Made by a program: the position numbers and the translations under genes
Source of the DNA: Pareuzebyella sediminis
GTDB taxonomy: Bacteria; Bacteroidota; Bacteroidia; Flavobacteriales; Flavobacteriaceae
Direction: 5' to 3'
DNA: 64,000 bases
NCBI RefSeq assembly: GCF_008367235.1
Contig: NZ_VTZS01000001.1
Span: 1,364,001 to 1,428,000, forward strand
Notes under the pieces: model-generated
Told to the model about the DNA's origin: nothing
Databases searched by the model: none
Seen by the model: only the letters and a program-made list of their open reading frames with translations
In this document: positions 36,428 through 64,000 of the stretch, piece by piece
How the letters are laid out: the number at the start of each line of letters is the position of its first letter
Numbering within the stretch: the stretch's first letter is position 1

Positions 36428-37975
36428 TTATTTCTGACCGTGCTCTTCCGTATCCTGGTCTTTGTTCTCCATGACAAAAAGATCCAGAAAAGCTTCACCT
36501 AACCCTTCAATTACATTAGAAGCAGTGAGCGATTGGTACCCTGTCTTTTCTACTTTGATATCGGCCGATCTACCATGTAGATAAACTCCGAAAACCGTTG
36601 CTTCAAGTGGTTCGTAACCTTGAGCGATCAAGCCGGTTATAATCCCCGTTAAGACATCACCGGTACCTCCAGAACCCATTCCTGGATTTCCCGTGGTGTT
36701 GATATAGCCCTTATCATTATAAAGAGTAATGGTGTGCGCCCCTTTTATCAGTAGAATACAATCGTATTCTTTCGCGAATTGCTTTGCCTTATCGACCTTT
36801 TGAAAATCATCTTTCCAACCTCCGATAAGCCTTTCTAGTTCCTTAGGGTGAGGGGTCAAAACTGTTTTAGCAGGAAGCTCCTTTAAGAGTTCCTCGTTTT
36901 CGGAAAGTAAGTTCAAACCATCTGCGTCAATCACCAAAGGCAGGGTGTTTTTTTTCAAGAATTCGGAGAAAGCCTTACCCGTTTTCTTATCCTTTCCTAT
37001 ACCCACCCCAATGCCGACCACCGAAGGTCGTATATCAAATTGTATATCTGATATATACCTTTCACCGGCATCTGTCAAAACCATCGCTTCCGGTAAATTG
37101 GTCTGAAGGGGAAGATAGCCACATCGGGGAACGTATGCCGTAACCAAGCCACTGCCTGCCAAAAGACAAGCCTTTGAAGCTAAATGTACAGCCCCGATCT
37201 TACCGTAACTTCCACCCACGATCAAACTATGGCCAAATGTACCCTTATGTGAAAACTTTTTCCTTGGGATATACATGCCCAGCACCTCGCTTTTTCCAAT
37301 TAATTCGAAATTTGTCTGGGTTTTTGAAAGGAAGTCTTGGTCAAGACCAATATCCAATAATTCCCATTGATCCGTAAATATTGCGGTCTGAGGCAAGAAA
37401 AATACCAACTTAGGTACCTGAAAACTCAAGGTATAATTCGCTTTCAGTACCGCTTCTTCGGAATCGGGCACCTTGTCGGTAAACAATCCGGAGGGCATAT
37501 CGACAGCGAGTATAAAGGCATCTGAAGCTTCTATATGAGAGAACAATTTGGCTACCCAATCATCCGGTGCACGGTTAAGTCCGATACCGAAGATCGCATC
37601 AACAATAATATCATCCTTTCCTAGCACCGGGAATTTACTACCCTCCTCTAAAAATTCTGGCCAGACCTTTCTTTCCTTTAGACGCTCTAAGTTGGTTAGA
37701 AAATCTTCAGAGCGATTTTTACTATAGTTAACGACATAGACCATTATATTATAACCATGTTCTTTAAGAAGCCTAGCCAATGCCAATCCGTCACCCCCGT
37801 TATTACCGATCCCACAAAACAAATTTATCTTTACCTGTGCACCCTGTAGGCGCGCGTGCATCCAACTGAAGAGTTGTTCGGCGGCCCTTTCCATAAGTTC
37901 ATCACTCGTTAGTCCTTGACTTTTCATCGTATTTTTGTCGGCTGCATAAATCTGTTCTGCGGTGTATATCTTCAT
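36428..37975 (-). CDS. nnr: Bifunctional NAD(P)H-hydrate epimerase/dehydratase
   Basis: A 515-residue fusion that repairs hydrated NAD(P)H. The N-terminal epimerase half (YjeF_N, about residues 1-215) has FCGIGNNGGDGLALAR and VDAIFGIGLNR. The C-terminal ADP-dependent dehydratase half (carbohydrate-kinase fold, about 225-500) has SHKGTFGHSLIVGGS, LTPHPKELERLIG and the nucleotide loop TGNPGMGSGGTGDVLTG with the catalytic aspartate. Both activities look complete. It lies alone and divergent from the thr operon. Confidence 0.95.
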   Translation of the reverse strand: MKIYTAEQIYAADKNTMKSQGLTSDELMERAAEQLFSWMHARLQGAQVKINLFCGIGNNGGDGLALARLLKEHGYNIMVYVVNYSKNRSEDFLTNLERLKERKVWPEFLEEGSKFPVLGKDDIIVDAIFGIGLNRAPDDWVAKLFSHIEASDAFILAVDMPSGLFTDKVPDSEEAVLKANYTLSFQVPKLVFFLPQTAIFTDQWELLDIGLDQDFLSKTQTNFELIGKSEVLGMYIPRKKFSHKGTFGHSLIVGGSYGKIGAVHLASKACLLAGSGLVTAYVPRCGYLPLQTNLPEAMVLTDAGERYISDIQFDIRPSVVGIGVGIGKDKKTGKAFSEFLKKNTLPLVIDADGLNLLSENEELLKELPAKTVLTPHPKELERLIGGWKDDFQKVDKAKQFAKEYDCILLIKGAHTITLYNDKGYINTTGNPGMGSGGTGDVLTGIITGLIAQGYEPLEATVFGVYLHGRSADIKVEKTGYQSLTASNVIEGLGEAFLDLFVMENKDQDTEEHGQK

Positions 37976-38065: not shown

Positions 38066-38096
38066 TTTGATTAAGAATGCAAAAGTACTACATTTG
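38066..38096 (+). promoter_or_regulatory. Promoter of the thr operon
   Basis: TTTG (38066-38069), a 19-bp spacer and TACATTTG (38089-38096) match the Bacteroidota vegetative consensus TTTG-N19-TAnnTTTG exactly. The start of transcription should fall near 38103, about 10 bp before the leader peptide ATG and some 170 bp before thrA. Confidence 0.8.
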
Positions 38097-38112
38097 GTGC
38101 TTTCAAATTTCA

Positions 38113-38205
38113 ATGTACCACTATACCGCGAACATATCCACTGAATTTTTCTTCACGACCAATGGTTCCATCACCACATTTGGCACAACAACCCCTTTGG
38201 GGTAA
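38113..38205 (+). CDS. Threonine-rich leader peptide (thrL-like)
   Basis: An ATG-initiated frame of 30 codons starts MYHYTANIST and ends SITTFGTTTPLG, with nine threonine codons, seven of them in the last sixteen residues, and two isoleucines. It lies about 10 bp after a consensus promoter and 69 bp before thrA. Threonine enrichment directly upstream of the threonine pathway is the signature of ribosome-mediated attenuation as in the E. coli thr leader. A short hairpin CCCC-TTT-GGGG covers the last codons. No classical terminator with a U-tract is visible between leader and thrA, so the mechanism may differ, for example by Rho or by translational coupling. Confidence 0.7.
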   Translation: MYHYTANISTEFFFTTNGSITTFGTTTPLG

Positions 38206-38274
38206 GCAATTCAATAATCGTTCGTTATCGCGTTTTATCGCTTCTAGGAATTCCACAAGTTTCAATAAAAAGTT

Positions 38275-40719
38275 ATGAAAGTTCTAAAATTCGGGGGCAC
38301 CTCGGTTGCCAACGCCAACACTATTTTTTCGGTCAAAGATATCGTAGCCCAAACGGCTGCCGATAAAATAATCGTAGTGGTATCGGCTTTTGGCGGTATT
38401 ACAGATCTCTTACTCCAAGGGGCACGTCAAGCGGCACAGCAGGATGAGACCTATAAATCCGTATTACAAGAAATTGAAGACAGACACTTGTCAACGGCTA
38501 AGGAACTAATTGCCATTAACGCCCAAAGCAAGGTGCTGAGCAAGGTTAAAAGTGAGCTAAACACCTTAGAGACACTGCTTGACGGAGCTTATCTAATTGG
38601 AGAGATTACCCCTAAACTTTCCGATAAAATCGTGAGCTACGGAGAACTTTTATCGTCTTATATTATCAGCGAATACCTCATTCAAGAAAATCTCGATGCC
38701 CGCCAAGTAGATAGTAGAACAATCATTAAAACGGACGATATAAATGGACGTGCAACGGTCGATTTTAAGTTGACGAATGATAATTGTGTTCACTTTTTTT
38801 CAGAAGTTCCCCAAAGCATTGTAGTGATGCCCGGTTTTATCGCCTCTTCGAAAAACGGAAATTCGACTACGCTAGGCCGTGGAGGTTCAGATTATACGGC
38901 CGCCATTATTGCTGCGGCCTTAGATGCAGAAGTTTTGGAGATTTGGACCGATGTGAGTGGCATGTATACTGCAAATCCGAAGCTTGTAAAACAGGCGAAG
39001 GCCATTCCGCATATCTCCTTTGAAGAAGCTATGGAGCTGTCTCATTTCGGGGCAAAAGTTCTTTACCCGCCAACGATACAACCTGTATTGGCCAAAGGCA
39101 TCTCTATCCATATTAAAAACACCTTTCAAGCCGAGGATGCCGGAACACTTATTACGAAAAGTAAAAATGAAAAAGGGAAGACCGTTCGGGGAATTACACA
39201 CGTAGGCGATATGGCACTACTCTCTTTAGAAGGACCTGGAATGGTCGGTATACCAGGTATTTCAAAGCGGTTTTTTGAAGTATTGTCACAAGCAGGTATT
39301 AGTGTGGTCTTTATAACACAAGCCTCTTCCGAACATTCTATTTGTGTAGGTATTTCAGCCAGCGATATCGAATATGCGGTAAAAACGGTCAACTCAGCCT
39401 TTGAATATGAAATTGAACGAGGACGTATAAAGCCTGTAATCGCCGAAAAAGAATTAGCCATTATCGCTTTGGTCGGTGACAACATGAAGCACCACCAAGG
39501 TCTCAGCGGGAAAATGTTCAGTACCCTTGGCCGAAACAATGTAAACATCCGTGCTATTGCCCAAGGAGCTTCAGAGCGCAATATTTCGGCAGTAATTGAC
39601 CAAAACGATGTCAAAAAAGCATTGAATTCCCTGCATGAAGAATTTTTTGAGGAAAATGTCAAACAGTTGAACCTATTTGTCATGGGAGTCGGCAATGTGG
39701 GTTCAAAATTCTTAGCGCAACTACAGCAACAGCGCTCCTTTTTAAAAGAGAACCTGAAGTTGAACCTCCGTGTCATCGGTATCTCGAATTCAAGAACCAT
39801 GGTTTTTGATGAAGGTGGTATTTCCTTAAAAAACTGGGAAGAACTTCTGAGCGAGGGACAAAAAGCGGACAAAGCCGAATTTTTTGAGATCGTAAAGCGC
39901 CTAAATTATCGTAATTCCATTTTCGTCGACAACACTGCCAGTGCAGAAGTAGCGTCTACCTATGACCGATATTTAGGCCATAGTATCTCTGTAGTCACAT
40001 GTAATAAGATTGCATGCTCGGCAGATTATGACAACTATCGCAAGCTCAAAGCCCTGGCACGGGAGTTCAATGCCCCTTTTCTCTTTGAGACCAATGTGGG
40101 TGCAGGCTTACCGATTATAGACACTTTGAAGCACCTAATAGCCTCTGGGGATAAGGTGCTTAAAATACAAGCAGTTCTATCAGGTAGCCTTAATTTTGTT
40201 TTCAACAATTTTAATGATAGCACCACCTTTTACGAAGTTGTAAGACGGGCGCAAGAAGAAGGCTATACCGAGCCTGATCCAAAAATAGACCTGAGCGGTA
40301 TTGATGTCATGCGTAAAATTCTCATCTTGGCACGTGAAAGTGGAAACCAACTGGAAATTGAAGATATTGAGAATCAAGCTTTTCTTCCTGAAGAAAGCTT
40401 GGCTACTGAAACCAATGATGAGTTTTTCATCTCCCTAAAAAAGTATGAAAATGATTTTCAACAAGTATATAGCGAAGCCGTTGAGGCCGATAGCAAATTA
40501 AAGTATGTGGCTCAATACGAAAACGGAAAAGCGAGTGTTGGACTGCAAAAGATACCTCGGGGCCATGATTTTTATAACTTGGAAGGAAGCGATAATATCG
40601 TGTTGTTCTATACGGAAAGATACCCCGACCAACCCATGATCATAAAAGGTGCCGGTGCGGGTGCAGAGGTTACGGCTTCAGGAATTTTCGCGGACATTAT
40701 TCGAATCGGCAACTTTTAG
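38275..40719 (+). CDS. thrA: Bifunctional aspartokinase/homoserine dehydrogenase
   Basis: An 814-residue fusion catalysing the first and third steps of the threonine/methionine branch. The aspartokinase part starts KFGGTSVANA and carries TLGRGGSDYTA. A central regulatory pair of ACT domains (about residues 310-465) includes GMVGIPGISKRFF and NVNIRAIAQGASERNIS. The homoserine dehydrogenase part starts with the NAD(P) loop FVMGVGNVGSKFL and holds TNVGAGLPII. It opens the thrABC operon behind the threonine-rich leader. Feedback inhibition by threonine through the ACT pair is expected from the family. Confidence 0.97.
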   Translation: MKVLKFGGTSVANANTIFSVKDIVAQTAADKIIVVVSAFGGITDLLLQGARQAAQQDETYKSVLQEIEDRHLSTAKELIAINAQSKVLSKVKSELNTLETLLDGAYLIGEITPKLSDKIVSYGELLSSYIISEYLIQENLDARQVDSRTIIKTDDINGRATVDFKLTNDNCVHFFSEVPQSIVVMPGFIASSKNGNSTTLGRGGSDYTAAIIAAALDAEVLEIWTDVSGMYTANPKLVKQAKAIPHISFEEAMELSHFGAKVLYPPTIQPVLAKGISIHIKNTFQAEDAGTLITKSKNEKGKTVRGITHVGDMALLSLEGPGMVGIPGISKRFFEVLSQAGISVVFITQASSEHSICVGISASDIEYAVKTVNSAFEYEIERGRIKPVIAEKELAIIALVGDNMKHHQGLSGKMFSTLGRNNVNIRAIAQGASERNISAVIDQNDVKKALNSLHEEFFEENVKQLNLFVMGVGNVGSKFLAQLQQQRSFLKENLKLNLRVIGISNSRTMVFDEGGISLKNWEELLSEGQKADKAEFFEIVKRLNYRNSIFVDNTASAEVASTYDRYLGHSISVVTCNKIACSADYDNYRKLKALAREFNAPFLFETNVGAGLPIIDTLKHLIASGDKVLKIQAVLSGSLNFVFNNFNDSTTFYEVVRRAQEEGYTEPDPKIDLSGIDVMRKILILARESGNQLEIEDIENQAFLPEESLATETNDEFFISLKKYENDFQQVYSEAVEADSKLKYVAQYENGKASVGLQKIPRGHDFYNLEGSDNIVLFYTERYPDQPMIIKGAGAGAEVTASGIFADIIRIGNF

Positions 40720-40772: not shown

Positions 40773-41699
40773 ATGATGAAAGAAGAAATCAAAGTGTTCT
40801 GCCCGGCCACCATCGCCAACATCTCTTGTGGGTTTGACGTCTTGGGCGTTGCCTTGGATTCGGTCGGAGACGAAATGGTTGTTCGAAAGGTTCCTAGCAA
40901 AGGAGTTCACATCACAAAATTGACTGGACAGGATCTTCCAACTGAAACGCATCTGAACGTAGCGGGAGTGGCCGCCCTATCGCTATTGGCAGAGTGCGAC
41001 TATGACGGTGGATTTGAAATTGAGATCTTCAAAAAAATAAAAGCCGGTAGTGGAATTGGCAGCAGTGCCGCCAGTTCTACGGGTGCCGTCTGGGGCATGA
41101 ACGCCTTAATGGGAAACCCTTTTTCAAAGCTGGAACTTGTAAAGTTTGCGATGGAAGGCGAACGTTTGGCCAGTGGTGTGGCCCATGCCGACAACGTAGC
41201 TCCTGCCCTATTTGGTGGTTTTACGCTGGTACGGAGCTACGATCCTTTGGATATTGTTCCCATAAATAGTCCTCCCGAGCTATTTGCCACTGTAATCCAC
41301 CCCCAAATCGAAGTGAAAACTTCAGATTCAAGAAAAATATTGAAAACTACACTTTCCTTGGCCGATGGCATAAAGCAATGGGGCAACGTGGGCGGTCTGA
41401 TCGCGGGGCTATATACGGAAGATTATGCGCTTATCGGTCGCTCTTTGGTTGATCATATTGTTGAGCCTATACGTTCGATCTTAATTCCTGGGTTCGACAA
41501 AGTAAAATCAAGCGCACTGGAAGCCGGTGCTTTGGGCTGCGGGATTTCCGGTTCCGGTCCCTCAATCTTTTCTTTTAGCAGGGGATCGGAAACTGCCAGA
41601 AAGGTAGCCGATGCTATGAAGGACGTGTATCAAAAAATTGGAATTGACTATGATGTTCATGTATCTAAAATCAATACGCTGGGCATTAGAGAGATTTAA
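40773..41699 (+). CDS. thrB: Homoserine kinase
   Basis: A 308-residue GHMP kinase that makes O-phosphohomoserine from homoserine. The ATP-binding glycine/serine motif KAGSGIGSSAASSTGAV (about residues 90-106) and the C-terminal GCGISGSGPSIF are intact. It lies 53 bp after thrA on the same strand and before thrC, so the operon order is the classical thrABC. An ATG one codon downstream is an alternative start. Confidence 0.97.
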   Translation: MMKEEIKVFCPATIANISCGFDVLGVALDSVGDEMVVRKVPSKGVHITKLTGQDLPTETHLNVAGVAALSLLAECDYDGGFEIEIFKKIKAGSGIGSSAASSTGAVWGMNALMGNPFSKLELVKFAMEGERLASGVAHADNVAPALFGGFTLVRSYDPLDIVPINSPPELFATVIHPQIEVKTSDSRKILKTTLSLADGIKQWGNVGGLIAGLYTEDYALIGRSLVDHIVEPIRSILIPGFDKVKSSALEAGALGCGISGSGPSIFSFSRGSETARKVADAMKDVYQKIGIDYDVHVSKINTLGIREI

Positions 41700-41795: not shown

Positions 41796-43091
41796 ATGAA
41801 ATTTTATAGCCTCAATCAACAAGCTCCAAAGGTCTCCTTTAAAGATGCAGTAATCAAAGGCATCGCACCCGACCGTGGCCTCTATTTCCCAGAGCGCATT
41901 ACACCGTTACCCAATTCTTTTTTTGAGCATATAGAAAAACTCTCTAACGAAGAAATAGCATTTCAGGCCATACATGATTTTGTTTCAGAAGATATTCCAG
42001 ACCCTACCTTAAGGAACATTTTACAAGAAGTGCTGGACTTTGATTTTCCCGTGAAGGAGATTGAAGAAAACACTGGGGTCTTAGAACTTTTTCATGGCCC
42101 GACCATGGCCTTTAAAGATGTAGGTGCCCGTTTTATGGCCAGATGTCTAGGCTATTTTTCCCGTGGTGAAGATTCCGAGGTAACCGTGTTGGTTGCCACT
42201 TCAGGAGATACCGGAGGAGCGGTTGCCAATGGTTTTTTAGGCGTAAAGGGGGTGAATGTAGTCATATTGTACCCCAAAGGAAAGGTTAGCGAAATTCAGG
42301 AAAGACAATTAACCACTTTGGGCCAAAACATTACCGCACTCGAAGTGGAAGGCACTTTTGACGACTGCCAGAAAATGGTGAAAACAGCTTTTTTGGATGA
42401 GGAGATTTTGAACGAGATGCAGCTAACCTCGGCAAATTCGATCAATGTGGCGCGTTGGCTGCCGCAATTATTCTATTTTCTGTTCGCCTACAAACAGACC
42501 AAAGCCAAAACTAGGAAAATAGTCTTTTCAATTCCCTCGGGCAATTTCGGAAACATCTGTGCAGGAATGGTCGCACAAAGTCTGGGAATGCCTTGTGACC
42601 ATTTCATAGCCGCCACCAACGTCAATGACACCGTACCCGAATTTATGAAGACCCAGGCCTATCGGCCCAAACCATCAACCGCAACCATTTCAAATGCTAT
42701 GGATGTAGGCGACCCCAGTAATTTTATTCGTATTCGGCATCTTTACCGGGACAATTTCGAGGAGCTTTCAAAAAACCTGTCGTCCTATTCATTTACAGAT
42801 GTGGAAACTAAGAAAGCTATGCTTGAAATATTCAAACAAACCCATTATGTCACCGACCCACACGGGGCGGTGGGGTATCTAGGTTTAAAAAAGTACCAAG
42901 AGAAACATTCAGATGCCTACGGTATTTTTCTGGAGACGGCACATCCCGTAAAATTTCTTCCTGTCGTTGAGGAAACCCTCGGATTAACTCCCGAAATACC
43001 TCCTCAGATAGAAAGGGTGATGCATCGAAAAAAAGTCTCCATCCCCATCAGGGACTACCAAGGTTTAAAAGTCTATTTGTTAAAGCGATAA
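41796..43091 (+). CDS. thrC: Threonine synthase
   Basis: A 431-residue PLP enzyme that converts O-phosphohomoserine to threonine. The PLP lysine lies in GPTMAFKDVGARF (about residue 108), with the phosphate-binding SGDTGGAVA and the later FSIPSGNFGNICAG typical of the long (class I) threonine synthases. It is the last gene of the operon, 96 bp after thrB. It is convergent with the aminopeptidase gene, whose stop is 25 bp away. Confidence 0.97.
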   Translation: MKFYSLNQQAPKVSFKDAVIKGIAPDRGLYFPERITPLPNSFFEHIEKLSNEEIAFQAIHDFVSEDIPDPTLRNILQEVLDFDFPVKEIEENTGVLELFHGPTMAFKDVGARFMARCLGYFSRGEDSEVTVLVATSGDTGGAVANGFLGVKGVNVVILYPKGKVSEIQERQLTTLGQNITALEVEGTFDDCQKMVKTAFLDEEILNEMQLTSANSINVARWLPQLFYFLFAYKQTKAKTRKIVFSIPSGNFGNICAGMVAQSLGMPCDHFIAATNVNDTVPEFMKTQAYRPKPSTATISNAMDVGDPSNFIRIRHLYRDNFEELSKNLSSYSFTDVETKKAMLEIFKQTHYVTDPHGAVGYLGLKKYQEKHSDAYGIFLETAHPVKFLPVVEETLGLTPEIPPQIERVMHRKKVSIPIRDYQGLKVYLLKR

Positions 43092-61632: not shown

Positions 61633-61743
61633 GACCCATATTCACCCTAGAAACTTTGACCTCTATTTTCTCCTATCTTCTGGTCATACAAGAAAGTTAG
61701 AAGTACTATATCAATACAGAGTAACCTCAAAAAATACTAAAAA

Positions 61744-62090
61744 AAGCAGGCCATAAGCCGGATTCTGTTTCCCTTGTAACTGTTCAGGTTATCCTAAAAG
61801 TCACAAGATACCCTATCATTTATCTAGTCGTAACATTACTATTACGCTCTAACCGCCTACCCTTCGGCTCGGACGTGCAACCCTCAAACACCGATTTACA
61901 TGGCGTTTCACCGCATAGAGTTTACCTGATTTCACTACAGCCTTACCTGTACATACTTTCTGCTGCACTGGTCCTGTTACGCTAATATTAGCGAACGACG
62001 GGCGTTACCCGCTATGCCGCACTATGGTGTCCGGACTTTCCTCTTTGAACCGATTAAGATTCGGAACAAAGCGATAGGGAGACCTGCTAA
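61744..62090 (-). ncRNA. rnpB: RNase P RNA (class A)
   Basis: The minus strand carries the conserved core: GAGGAAAGTCCGGACACCAT near its 5' half, AGCGGGTAACGCCCGTCG, and ACAGAATCCGGCTTATGGCC at its 3' end. The 5' GCAGGTC and 3' GGCCTGC form the closing P1 helix, and an A/T-rich run follows. It is the catalytic RNA that matures tRNA 5' ends. The ends are set from P1 and may be off by a few bases. Confidence 0.93.
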
Positions 62091-62209: not shown

Positions 62210-64000
62210 TTGGAACCTTTTATTGTATCGGCTCGAAAATACAGACCCCAAACGTTTAAGGATGTTGTGGGGCAAGAGGCGATAACCAATACGCTCACCA
62301 ATGCCATTGAGAACAACCATCTCGCCCAGGCACTTTTATTTTGTGGGCCAAGGGGTGTCGGCAAAACTACTTGTGCCAGAATTTTAGCAAAAAAAATCAA
62401 CCAAGATGGTACTGAAAGAAAAGATGAAGATTTTGCCTTCAATATCTTCGAACTCGATGCCGCTTCTAACAATTCCGTTGATGATATTAGAAATCTCATC
62501 GATCAAGTACGTATTCCACCACAAGTGGGAAAGTATAAAGTATACATTATCGACGAGGTACATATGCTTTCCCAATCGGCCTTCAATGCCTTTTTGAAAA
62601 CGCTGGAAGAGCCTCCAAAACATGCCATTTTTATTCTGGCTACCACCGAAAAACACAAAATTATTCCCACCATATTATCACGGTGCCAGATTTTTGATTT
62701 TAAACGGATATCGGTAAAGGATGCTGCTGCCTACCTGAAATACATTGCGGATAACCAAGGTGTAGAAGCCGAAGACGATGCGTTGCACATCATTGCCCAA
62801 AAAGCCGATGGTGCCATGCGCGACGCCCTTTCGATTTTTGACAGGGTCGTCAGTTTTTCCGGGAAACAGCTAACCAGAAAAGCGGTTACCGAAAACTTGA
62901 ATGTGCTCGATTATGACACTTATTTTGCGGCTACCGATTTAATATTGAAACATAGTATACCCGAATTACTTTTACTCTTCAATAAAACTTTATCGTACGG
63001 CTTTGATGGTCACCATTTCATCAACGGTTTGGCCTCTCATTTCCGAGATTTGATGGTATGCCAACACCAAGATACCATCGATTTGCTGGAGGTGGGCGAA
63101 AATGCCAAAAAGCTGTATTTAGAACAATCGAAAAAAACTTCGAACAGTTTTCTCATTAAGGCTTTAGATTTAGCCAATAATTGCGACCTCAACTATAAGA
63201 CCAGTAAAAATCAACGACTGTTGGTCGAGCTTACCCTTATGAAATTGGCCTCCATAGATTTTGGAGAAAAAAAAAATTCTGAATCCAGTGCCCTAAGCGG
63301 ACCGACGGCTGATTATATTGCCCCTGCATCTTTTTATCATCAAAACTTTGTTGCTTATGAAGTTCCGGAAAAACCAGTGCCGACAACCGTTGAAAGTCAG
63401 TCTGTGGAAAAGGAGAAGGAGCCTTCACCCAGCCCTACAAGAAAACAACGAATAGAAGAAGAGCCCCTCGCTAATCATTCGGATTCATTTTCAGACCATT
63501 CAGGTTCGATCGTAACAGAAAGACCCAAAACCGAAACTTCTAAGGTATCCAAGCCCGAAATTAAAGTGACCAAGCGTGTATCAGGGTTATCCATTTCGAG
63601 TTTGAAAGCCAAAAAAACGCATGAACTCAATAAAAAAAACGATGTTCCAGACGAAACCGAACTGCCTCGAACACCGATTGTTGAAGAAGACCTACAGCAG
63701 CATTGGAGTAATTTTGTTGACGAAATCGATTCAAGAGGTCAAAAGATATTGGCATCCAATCTCAATGCGGATGTTCCAAAATTATTGAAGGATACTACAA
63801 TTTGGATAGAACTTCCCAACAGTACCATGAAAAAGGAAGTCGAAAGGGAGCAATACGATCTGATGGAATATTTGAAGTCGAAATTGAACAACTACTTTAT
63901 CGACTTGAAGATTACGGTAAATGAGGAAACTGCCAAAAAGTTTGCCTTTACCCCTGCCGAGAAATATGAAAAATTACGTGAAAAGAATCCAACTATCGAT
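62210..64000 (+). CDS. dnaX: DNA polymerase III subunit gamma/tau, truncated by window end
   Basis: The frame stays open from the TTG at 62210 to the end of the window (597 codons), so the 3' end is missing. TTG is chosen because the protein then begins EPFIVSARKYRPQTFKDVVG as in flavobacterial DnaX, and a stop lies just upstream. The clamp-loader ATPase has Walker A CGPRGVGKTTCAR, DEVHMLSQSAFNAFLKTLEE and the sensor region ILSRCQIFDF. The four-cysteine zinc module of E. coli DnaX is absent, as is usual in this group. A low-complexity Ser/Glu/Lys linker (about residues 355-480) leads to the tau-type C-terminal part. Confidence 0.95.
   Translation, partial: MEPFIVSARKYRPQTFKDVVGQEAITNTLTNAIENNHLAQALLFCGPRGVGKTTCARILAKKINQDGTERKDEDFAFNIFELDAASNNSVDDIRNLIDQVRIPPQVGKYKVYIIDEVHMLSQSAFNAFLKTLEEPPKHAIFILATTEKHKIIPTILSRCQIFDFKRISVKDAAAYLKYIADNQGVEAEDDALHIIAQKADGAMRDALSIFDRVVSFSGKQLTRKAVTENLNVLDYDTYFAATDLILKHSIPELLLLFNKTLSYGFDGHHFINGLASHFRDLMVCQHQDTIDLLEVGENAKKLYLEQSKKTSNSFLIKALDLANNCDLNYKTSKNQRLLVELTLMKLASIDFGEKKNSESSALSGPTADYIAPASFYHQNFVAYEVPEKPVPTTVESQSVEKEKEPSPSPTRKQRIEEEPLANHSDSFSDHSGSIVTERPKTETSKVSKPEIKVTKRVSGLSISSLKAKKTHELNKKNDVPDETELPRTPIVEEDLQQHWSNFVDEIDSRGQKILASNLNADVPKLLKDTTIWIELPNSTMKKEVEREQYDLMEYLKSKLNNYFIDLKITVNEETAKKFAFTPAEKYEKLREKNPTID

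Follow-up and report, generated by a model that had tools for sequence, protein, structure and literature searches.

A threonine- and isoleucine-rich leader with a hairpin at its stop codon upstream of thrA in Flavobacteriaceae and related families, a putative variant of leader-peptide attenuation

What does a threonine-rich leader frame upstream of thrA do in a flavobacterium when no U-rich terminator follows it? We addressed this question for the thr locus of Pareuzebyella sediminis, contained in a window of 64,000 nucleotides (the whole stretch of DNA analysed, to which all positions refer unless stated otherwise). An earlier note on this window had described a consensus promoter, a 30-codon frame with nine threonines and two isoleucines, and a gap of 69 bp to thrA, all of which can be read directly in the DNA as claimed (Table 1); it had overlooked the hairpin at the leader stop codon, the conserved linker that follows, and a second hairpin.

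Table 1. Features of the P. sediminis thr leader and operon, with positions in the window
Feature	Position	Strand	Basis
Sigma-A type promoter of Bacteroidota: TTTG (38066-38069), N19, TACATTTG (38089-38096)	38066-38096	+	Direct reading; conservation in relatives
Leader ORF MYHYTANISTEFFFTTNGSITTFGTTTPLG, 30 codons, 9 Thr and 2 Ile, stop TAA at 38203-38205	38113-38205	+	Direct reading; codon-position bias
Possible long-range helix P1, 5' arm GCGAAC	38128-38133	+	Minimum free energy pairing with 38220-38225; weak statistics
Control codons ITTFGTTT; the final one, Thr codon ACC (38191-38193), forms the 5' base of P3	38170-38193	+	In-frame ACC in 83 of 83 leaders
P3 hairpin ACCCC-UUU-GGGGU, overlapping the leader stop codon	38191-38203	+	Fold across relatives; compensatory outer pairs
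Linker P3-P4, motif degenerate here (CAATAATCGTTCG); contains the P1 3' arm (38220-38225)	38206-38229	+	Motif counts in relatives
P4 hairpin GCG-UUUUAU-CGC, weak, without U-tract	38230-38241	+	Shuffle z; compensatory changes in relatives
thrA, fused aspartate kinase-homoserine dehydrogenase, 814 aa	38275-40719	+	Function from sequence and family knowledge
thrB, homoserine kinase-like	40773-41699	+	Named from sequence
thrC, threonine synthase-like	41796-43091	+	Named from sequence

The thr locus and its leader frame

The genes follow in the order thrA-thrB-thrC, with 69 nt between the leader stop and the thrA ATG (38275) and 16 nt between TACATTTG and the leader ATG (38113). Because TAnnTTTG, the primary-sigma consensus of Flavobacterium psychrophilum, sits at −12 to −5 in that species (PMC9723704), transcription is predicted to start near 38101. 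The full consensus TTTG-N18-20-TAnnTTTG occurs just twice within the 64-kb window, the second time at 62391 on the minus strand, where it precedes the RNase P RNA (minus strand, 61739-62090) by about 300 bases. The divergent neighbour of thrA (36428-37975, minus strand) resembles an NAD(P)H-hydrate repair enzyme by sequence, and similar frames seemingly adjoin thrA, in parts, in several relatives. Elsewhere in the same genome (G000:C16:114094-116496) lies a second fusion resembling aspartate kinase-homoserine dehydrogenase, 36% identical to ThrA.

A search with the ThrA N-terminus gave matches in 195 of 199 genomes, one genome per Flavobacteriaceae genus, and reading the upstream regions under a strict rule revealed the same anatomy with a Thr/Ile-rich leader in 73 of 90 Flavobacteriaceae genera. 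Another eight leaders belong to different families within the order or class, and the leader is also found outside the class, in family f84 (L227, L228). The set examined in detail comprises 83 leaders, 75 of Flavobacteriaceae and 8 of other families. In the nine codons before the hairpin, Thr makes up 36% and Ile 22% in the leader frame, compared with 1.5% and 0.4% Thr in the other two frames of the same stretch, and Thr or Ile stands at codon −1 before the hairpin in 88% of the leaders and at codon −2 in 80%, all Thr/Ile percentages being somewhat inflated because the score by which leaders were chosen rewards these two residues. This score took in neither the downstream motif nor the promoter box, and in 73 of the 83 a TAnnTTTG box precedes the leader ATG, in most cases by 16-20 nt.

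Between the window and five Zobellia genomes, leader differences at codon positions 1, 2 and 3 number 15, 10 and 58, respectively. Thr and Ile are kept as amino acids while their codons change, and they cluster next to the stop; the length, the N-terminus and the last residues of the leader vary freely across genera, and its position is always just upstream of thrA. The occurrence of a Thr/Ile leader at this site is not due to chance, and the conservation of the threonine codons in relatives, on which the earlier note had made its reading depend, was looked for and found.

A hairpin at the stop codon, a linker and a second hairpin

The P3 hairpin has the general form ACCC(C)-loop-(G)GGGT, with a loop of 3-4 nt, rarely longer, and a stem of 5-6 bp, and is formed in all 83 leaders. 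Its first three bases are the in-frame ACC of the last Thr codon, again in 83 of 83, and the leader stop codon lies within P3 or just past it. The outer pairs show compensatory changes; the inner CCC:GGG pairs show no covariation, which is therefore silent on them. In two genera of family f25 outside this set (L168, L170), the arms are reversed (ACGGG-GTAA/GTGA-CCCGT, with a GNRA-type loop), and the last Thr codon is ACG, replacing ACC. Among near relatives (named here are Zobellia, Pseudozobellia, Euzebyella, Maribacter and Arenibacter), the strict hairpin pattern is present at 69 of 80 loci, and a shorter hairpin can be discerned by eye in 8 of the remaining 11. Three near relatives, L250, L254 and L259 (Pricia), have possible leader traces and no recognisable P3; these are apparent recent losses of the element.

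In the linker, the motif [CU]AUAU (UAUAU or CAUAU) occurs in 68 of the 83 leaders, against 19.3 in shuffles, and ends 14.2 ± 1.7 nt past P3; relatives often carry YCCG (TCCG) or CGUCC here as well. The AU-rich P4 region folds more stably than its dinucleotide shuffles (mean z −1.4, p 2e-11, 83 genomes), and 5 of 8 P4 pairs have changes on both sides in Flavobacterium-like genera. The joint covariation score of P3 and P4 was reached by none of 500 shuffles. P4 is absent in some genomes. While the spacing of the block to the leader is kept, the distance to thrA floats (94 ± 35 nt, range 53-258), with 170 nt from the leader stop to thrA in Cerina litoralis (L322). In this locus and in L077, some 90-100 extra bases lie between the leader block and thrA, and the block is intact.

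We also considered P1, formed by CGGACATA in the leader and CGUCCG in the linker, as a general helix and rejected it, as the pairing holds mainly in the Maribacter/Arenibacter/Zobellia clade; matched versus mismatched duplexes gave a z of about −2.3 and a p of about 0.012, by statistics that ignore relatedness. Single-sequence folding of the window's leader was uninformative (z −0.4).

For a covariance model built on P3 and the linker, the thrA leader was the best-scoring site both in the window's genome and in the two nearest relatives searched (E 7e-4 to 3e-7). Matches elsewhere were weak and, where inspected, had no Thr/Ile leader, except one at thrA; absence in other genomes means little, because the model finds the shorter-stemmed form unreliably. 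The idea that the same element serves other operons was dropped, pattern-search matches there being no more numerous than in the control, and no such element was found in the upstream regions of ilvD. As far as these searches reach, the element does not serve amino-acid operons here in general. No covariance match at the thr leader element was returned by Rfam 15, including RF00506 (Thr_leader), at eight loci and E values up to 5.

How the leader may act

The earlier note had likened the locus to the E. coli thr attenuator, remarked that no U-rich terminator was evident, and suggested a possibly new sensing output. In a terminator scan, the 83 thr leaders have a median of −1.0 kcal/mol, compared with −17.6 kcal/mol for hisG leaders, of which 18 of 18, including that of the window's own genome, have a strong U-tract terminator. 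A U-tract terminator is not conserved among the 83, and a value of −6 or lower is not reached by the window's leader. Nor did the search for an antiterminator yield a conserved structure: pairings of the Thr region with downstream sequence and of the leader with P4 were not convincingly above shuffled or mismatched controls, the weak leader-linker signal of P1 being the only one. One candidate, the pairing of the Ile-Thr-Thr codons (ATTACAA) with the 5' arm of P4, was rejected because the shuffles did equally well in Flavobacterium-like genera, where 85% of cells pair; over all clades it is unsupported. The P1 3' arm with UUUUU was ruled out as a terminator, its stem being too short and its loop about 90 nt. 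The scan thus bears out the lack of a U-rich terminator, and the output does differ from that of the E. coli attenuator in having no intrinsic terminator. From the proposed E. coli logic, the Thr (and Ile) leader upstream of thrA stands and the antiterminator falls; as P3, the linker motif and P4 are conserved while no antiterminator is, the locus is not simply the E. coli arrangement minus its terminator.

Thr/Ile leaders with a classic U-tract terminator do occur upstream of thrA (L088, L172, L174 and, by eye, L082). A further locus, L173, resembles these by eye, yet failed the terminator scan. Since both leader types occur at the same gene, they are taken to do the same job and, by analogy, the hairpin type would control thrA by Thr/Ile supply as the terminator type does. 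Because the usual terminator signal is lacking, the leader probably senses threonine and isoleucine supply by an output that has not yet been described.

Judging from the sequence comparisons, we tentatively favour, with a little less than even confidence, a cis-acting leader that would set thrABC expression through ribosome translation of its terminal Thr/Ile codons, a starved ribosome blocking premature and probably Rho-dependent termination. With ample Thr-tRNA and Ile-tRNA, the ribosome would reach the stop codon at P3 and leave, whereupon the G-poor linker and interval would lie bare and transcription would end before thrA or early in it, Rho being the most likely agent. If either tRNA runs short, the ribosome would park on the last Thr/Ile codons. 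As these lie immediately at the stop, the parked ribosome would sit over P3 and up against the linker, blocking the termination factor and letting RNA polymerase proceed into thrA. A further role of P3 may be to make RNA polymerase pause about 11-14 nt downstream, keeping ribosome and polymerase in step. The model resembles tnaC, where a ribosome that has stalled at the ORF's end protects neighbouring RNA from Rho.

The output step of this model is one that we infer. Since the block lies at a steady distance from the leader while thrA floats, an output at the level of the transcript is favoured, and the genome has a rho gene. The interval from the leader stop to thrA contains 8.8% G, compared with 16.9% in 137 other 5' regions (p 2e-21). 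C is not enriched in the interval, P4 is structured, and YC dinucleotides, considered as a mark of Rho, show nothing beyond composition, so the case for Rho rests on the low G content and on other signals being lacking. The favoured model also assigns no function to P4, although this helix is real, and the linker would be exposed if a starved ribosome parked at a more upstream position.

Alternatively, an unmelted P3 could cause RNA polymerase to pause or be released at UAUAU/CAUAU, about 11-14 nt further downstream and without a U-tract, unless prevented by a ribosome on the terminal Thr/Ile codons. The near-fixed spacing between hairpin and motif is compatible with hairpin-dependent pausing, the sequence past the hairpin is AU-rich, and P3 is universal among the 83 leaders. 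However, the stem has just 5-6 bp and nearly all leaders lack a U-tract, the hisG leaders of related genomes use normal terminators, and pausing alone leaves the sign of the response unexplained, which makes this explanation rather unlikely.

A further possibility, which we consider doubtful, is translational control, in which translation of the leader would reshape the RNA and thereby open or close the thrA start. The E. coli upstream ORF toiL acts in this way on topAI (PMC12121999), and P4 and perhaps P1 would provide structure. However, the predicted openness of the thrA start is 0.53, compared with 0.50 in controls, and the distance from P3 to thrA varies widely, so masking of the start is disfavoured; an unsystematic look at pairing to the thrA start noticed none.

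It is improbable that the locus is a classic attenuator of the E. coli type whose terminator and antiterminator have diverged and been overlooked. The gene and the control amino acids are the same, classic forms exist at thrA in other lineages, and P4 resembles the 3:4 hairpin in position, but the scan medians, the unconserved U-tract, leader-P4 pairing no better than shuffled, and the lack of an Rfam match all argue against it. That the frame is a constitutive small ORF or encodes a small protein with no regulatory role is very improbable: its amino-acid constraint would fit, but what is kept across genera is the terminal Thr/Ile codons and an RNA hairpin, with length, N-terminus and last residues free, always directly upstream of thrA.

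Novelty and comparison with known systems

We regard the thr leader as a real, widely conserved and apparently undescribed variant of the leader-peptide attenuator. We see evenly balanced chances that it represents a separate, Bacteroidota-wide class of ribosome-gated leaders, in which the stop-codon hairpin at the last control codon, the UAUAU/YCCG linker and the second, AU-rich hairpin would stand in for terminator and antiterminator, and the output, be it Rho, pausing or another factor, would be undescribed for amino-acid attenuators. If so, it would be a main control of threonine across much of a large phylum, and related lineages would possess the attenuator of one gene either with a terminator or without one. 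It would also offer a compact case of amino-acid sensing that lends itself to direct testing, and a comparison set in bacteria whose promoters and translation starts are unusual.

A description of the element was not found in the open-access literature. A comparative attenuator study of 2004 reportedly mentioned candidates in Bacteroidetes/Chlorobi. The earlier note's view that such control is little described in Bacteroidota thus holds for this specific element and not for attenuation itself, which had been inferred before upstream of amino-acid operons in F. psychrophilum (PMC9723704); the main text of that paper does not mention thrA and describes none of P3, the linker and P4.

The E. coli thr attenuator likewise has, ahead of thrA, a leader peptide with many Thr codons, whose translation senses supply (PMC4132733; thrL, Rfam RF00506 Thr_leader). 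In contrast to thrL, the leader described here has no 3:4 terminator with a U-tract and no conserved antiterminator, a hairpin beginning with the last Thr codon overlaps its stop codon, and it has no match in Rfam.

In tnaC and toiL-topAI, as proposed here, no intrinsic terminator is involved, and whether transcription terminates prematurely would depend on where a ribosome stands at the end of a short ORF. However, tnaC stalls the ribosome through the nascent peptide with excess Trp, whereas stalling on the thr leader would need uncharged Thr or Ile tRNA. At toiL-topAI, translational repression leads secondarily to Rho termination (PMC12121999); toiL works through the topAI ribosome-binding site, whereas a role of Rho at the thr leader is our proposal.

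The hisG leader of the window's own genome (L113) and those of related genomes (L112-L129) are classic his attenuators with His-rich leaders such as MSEMKNENTHHHFYSCSQAR. They often contain a complementary CTCAAGCGAG-like stretch and, as judged by eye, in most of them a stretch near the leader end is complementary to the 5' arm of the terminator. The two kinds of leader share the same kind of genomes and a run of control codons; the his leaders have a U-tract terminator (18 of 18) and, in most, the complementary stretch, whereas the thr leader has neither. Because the his leaders of its relatives use textbook terminators, the thr leader provides a natural comparison for how ribosome stalling is converted into control.
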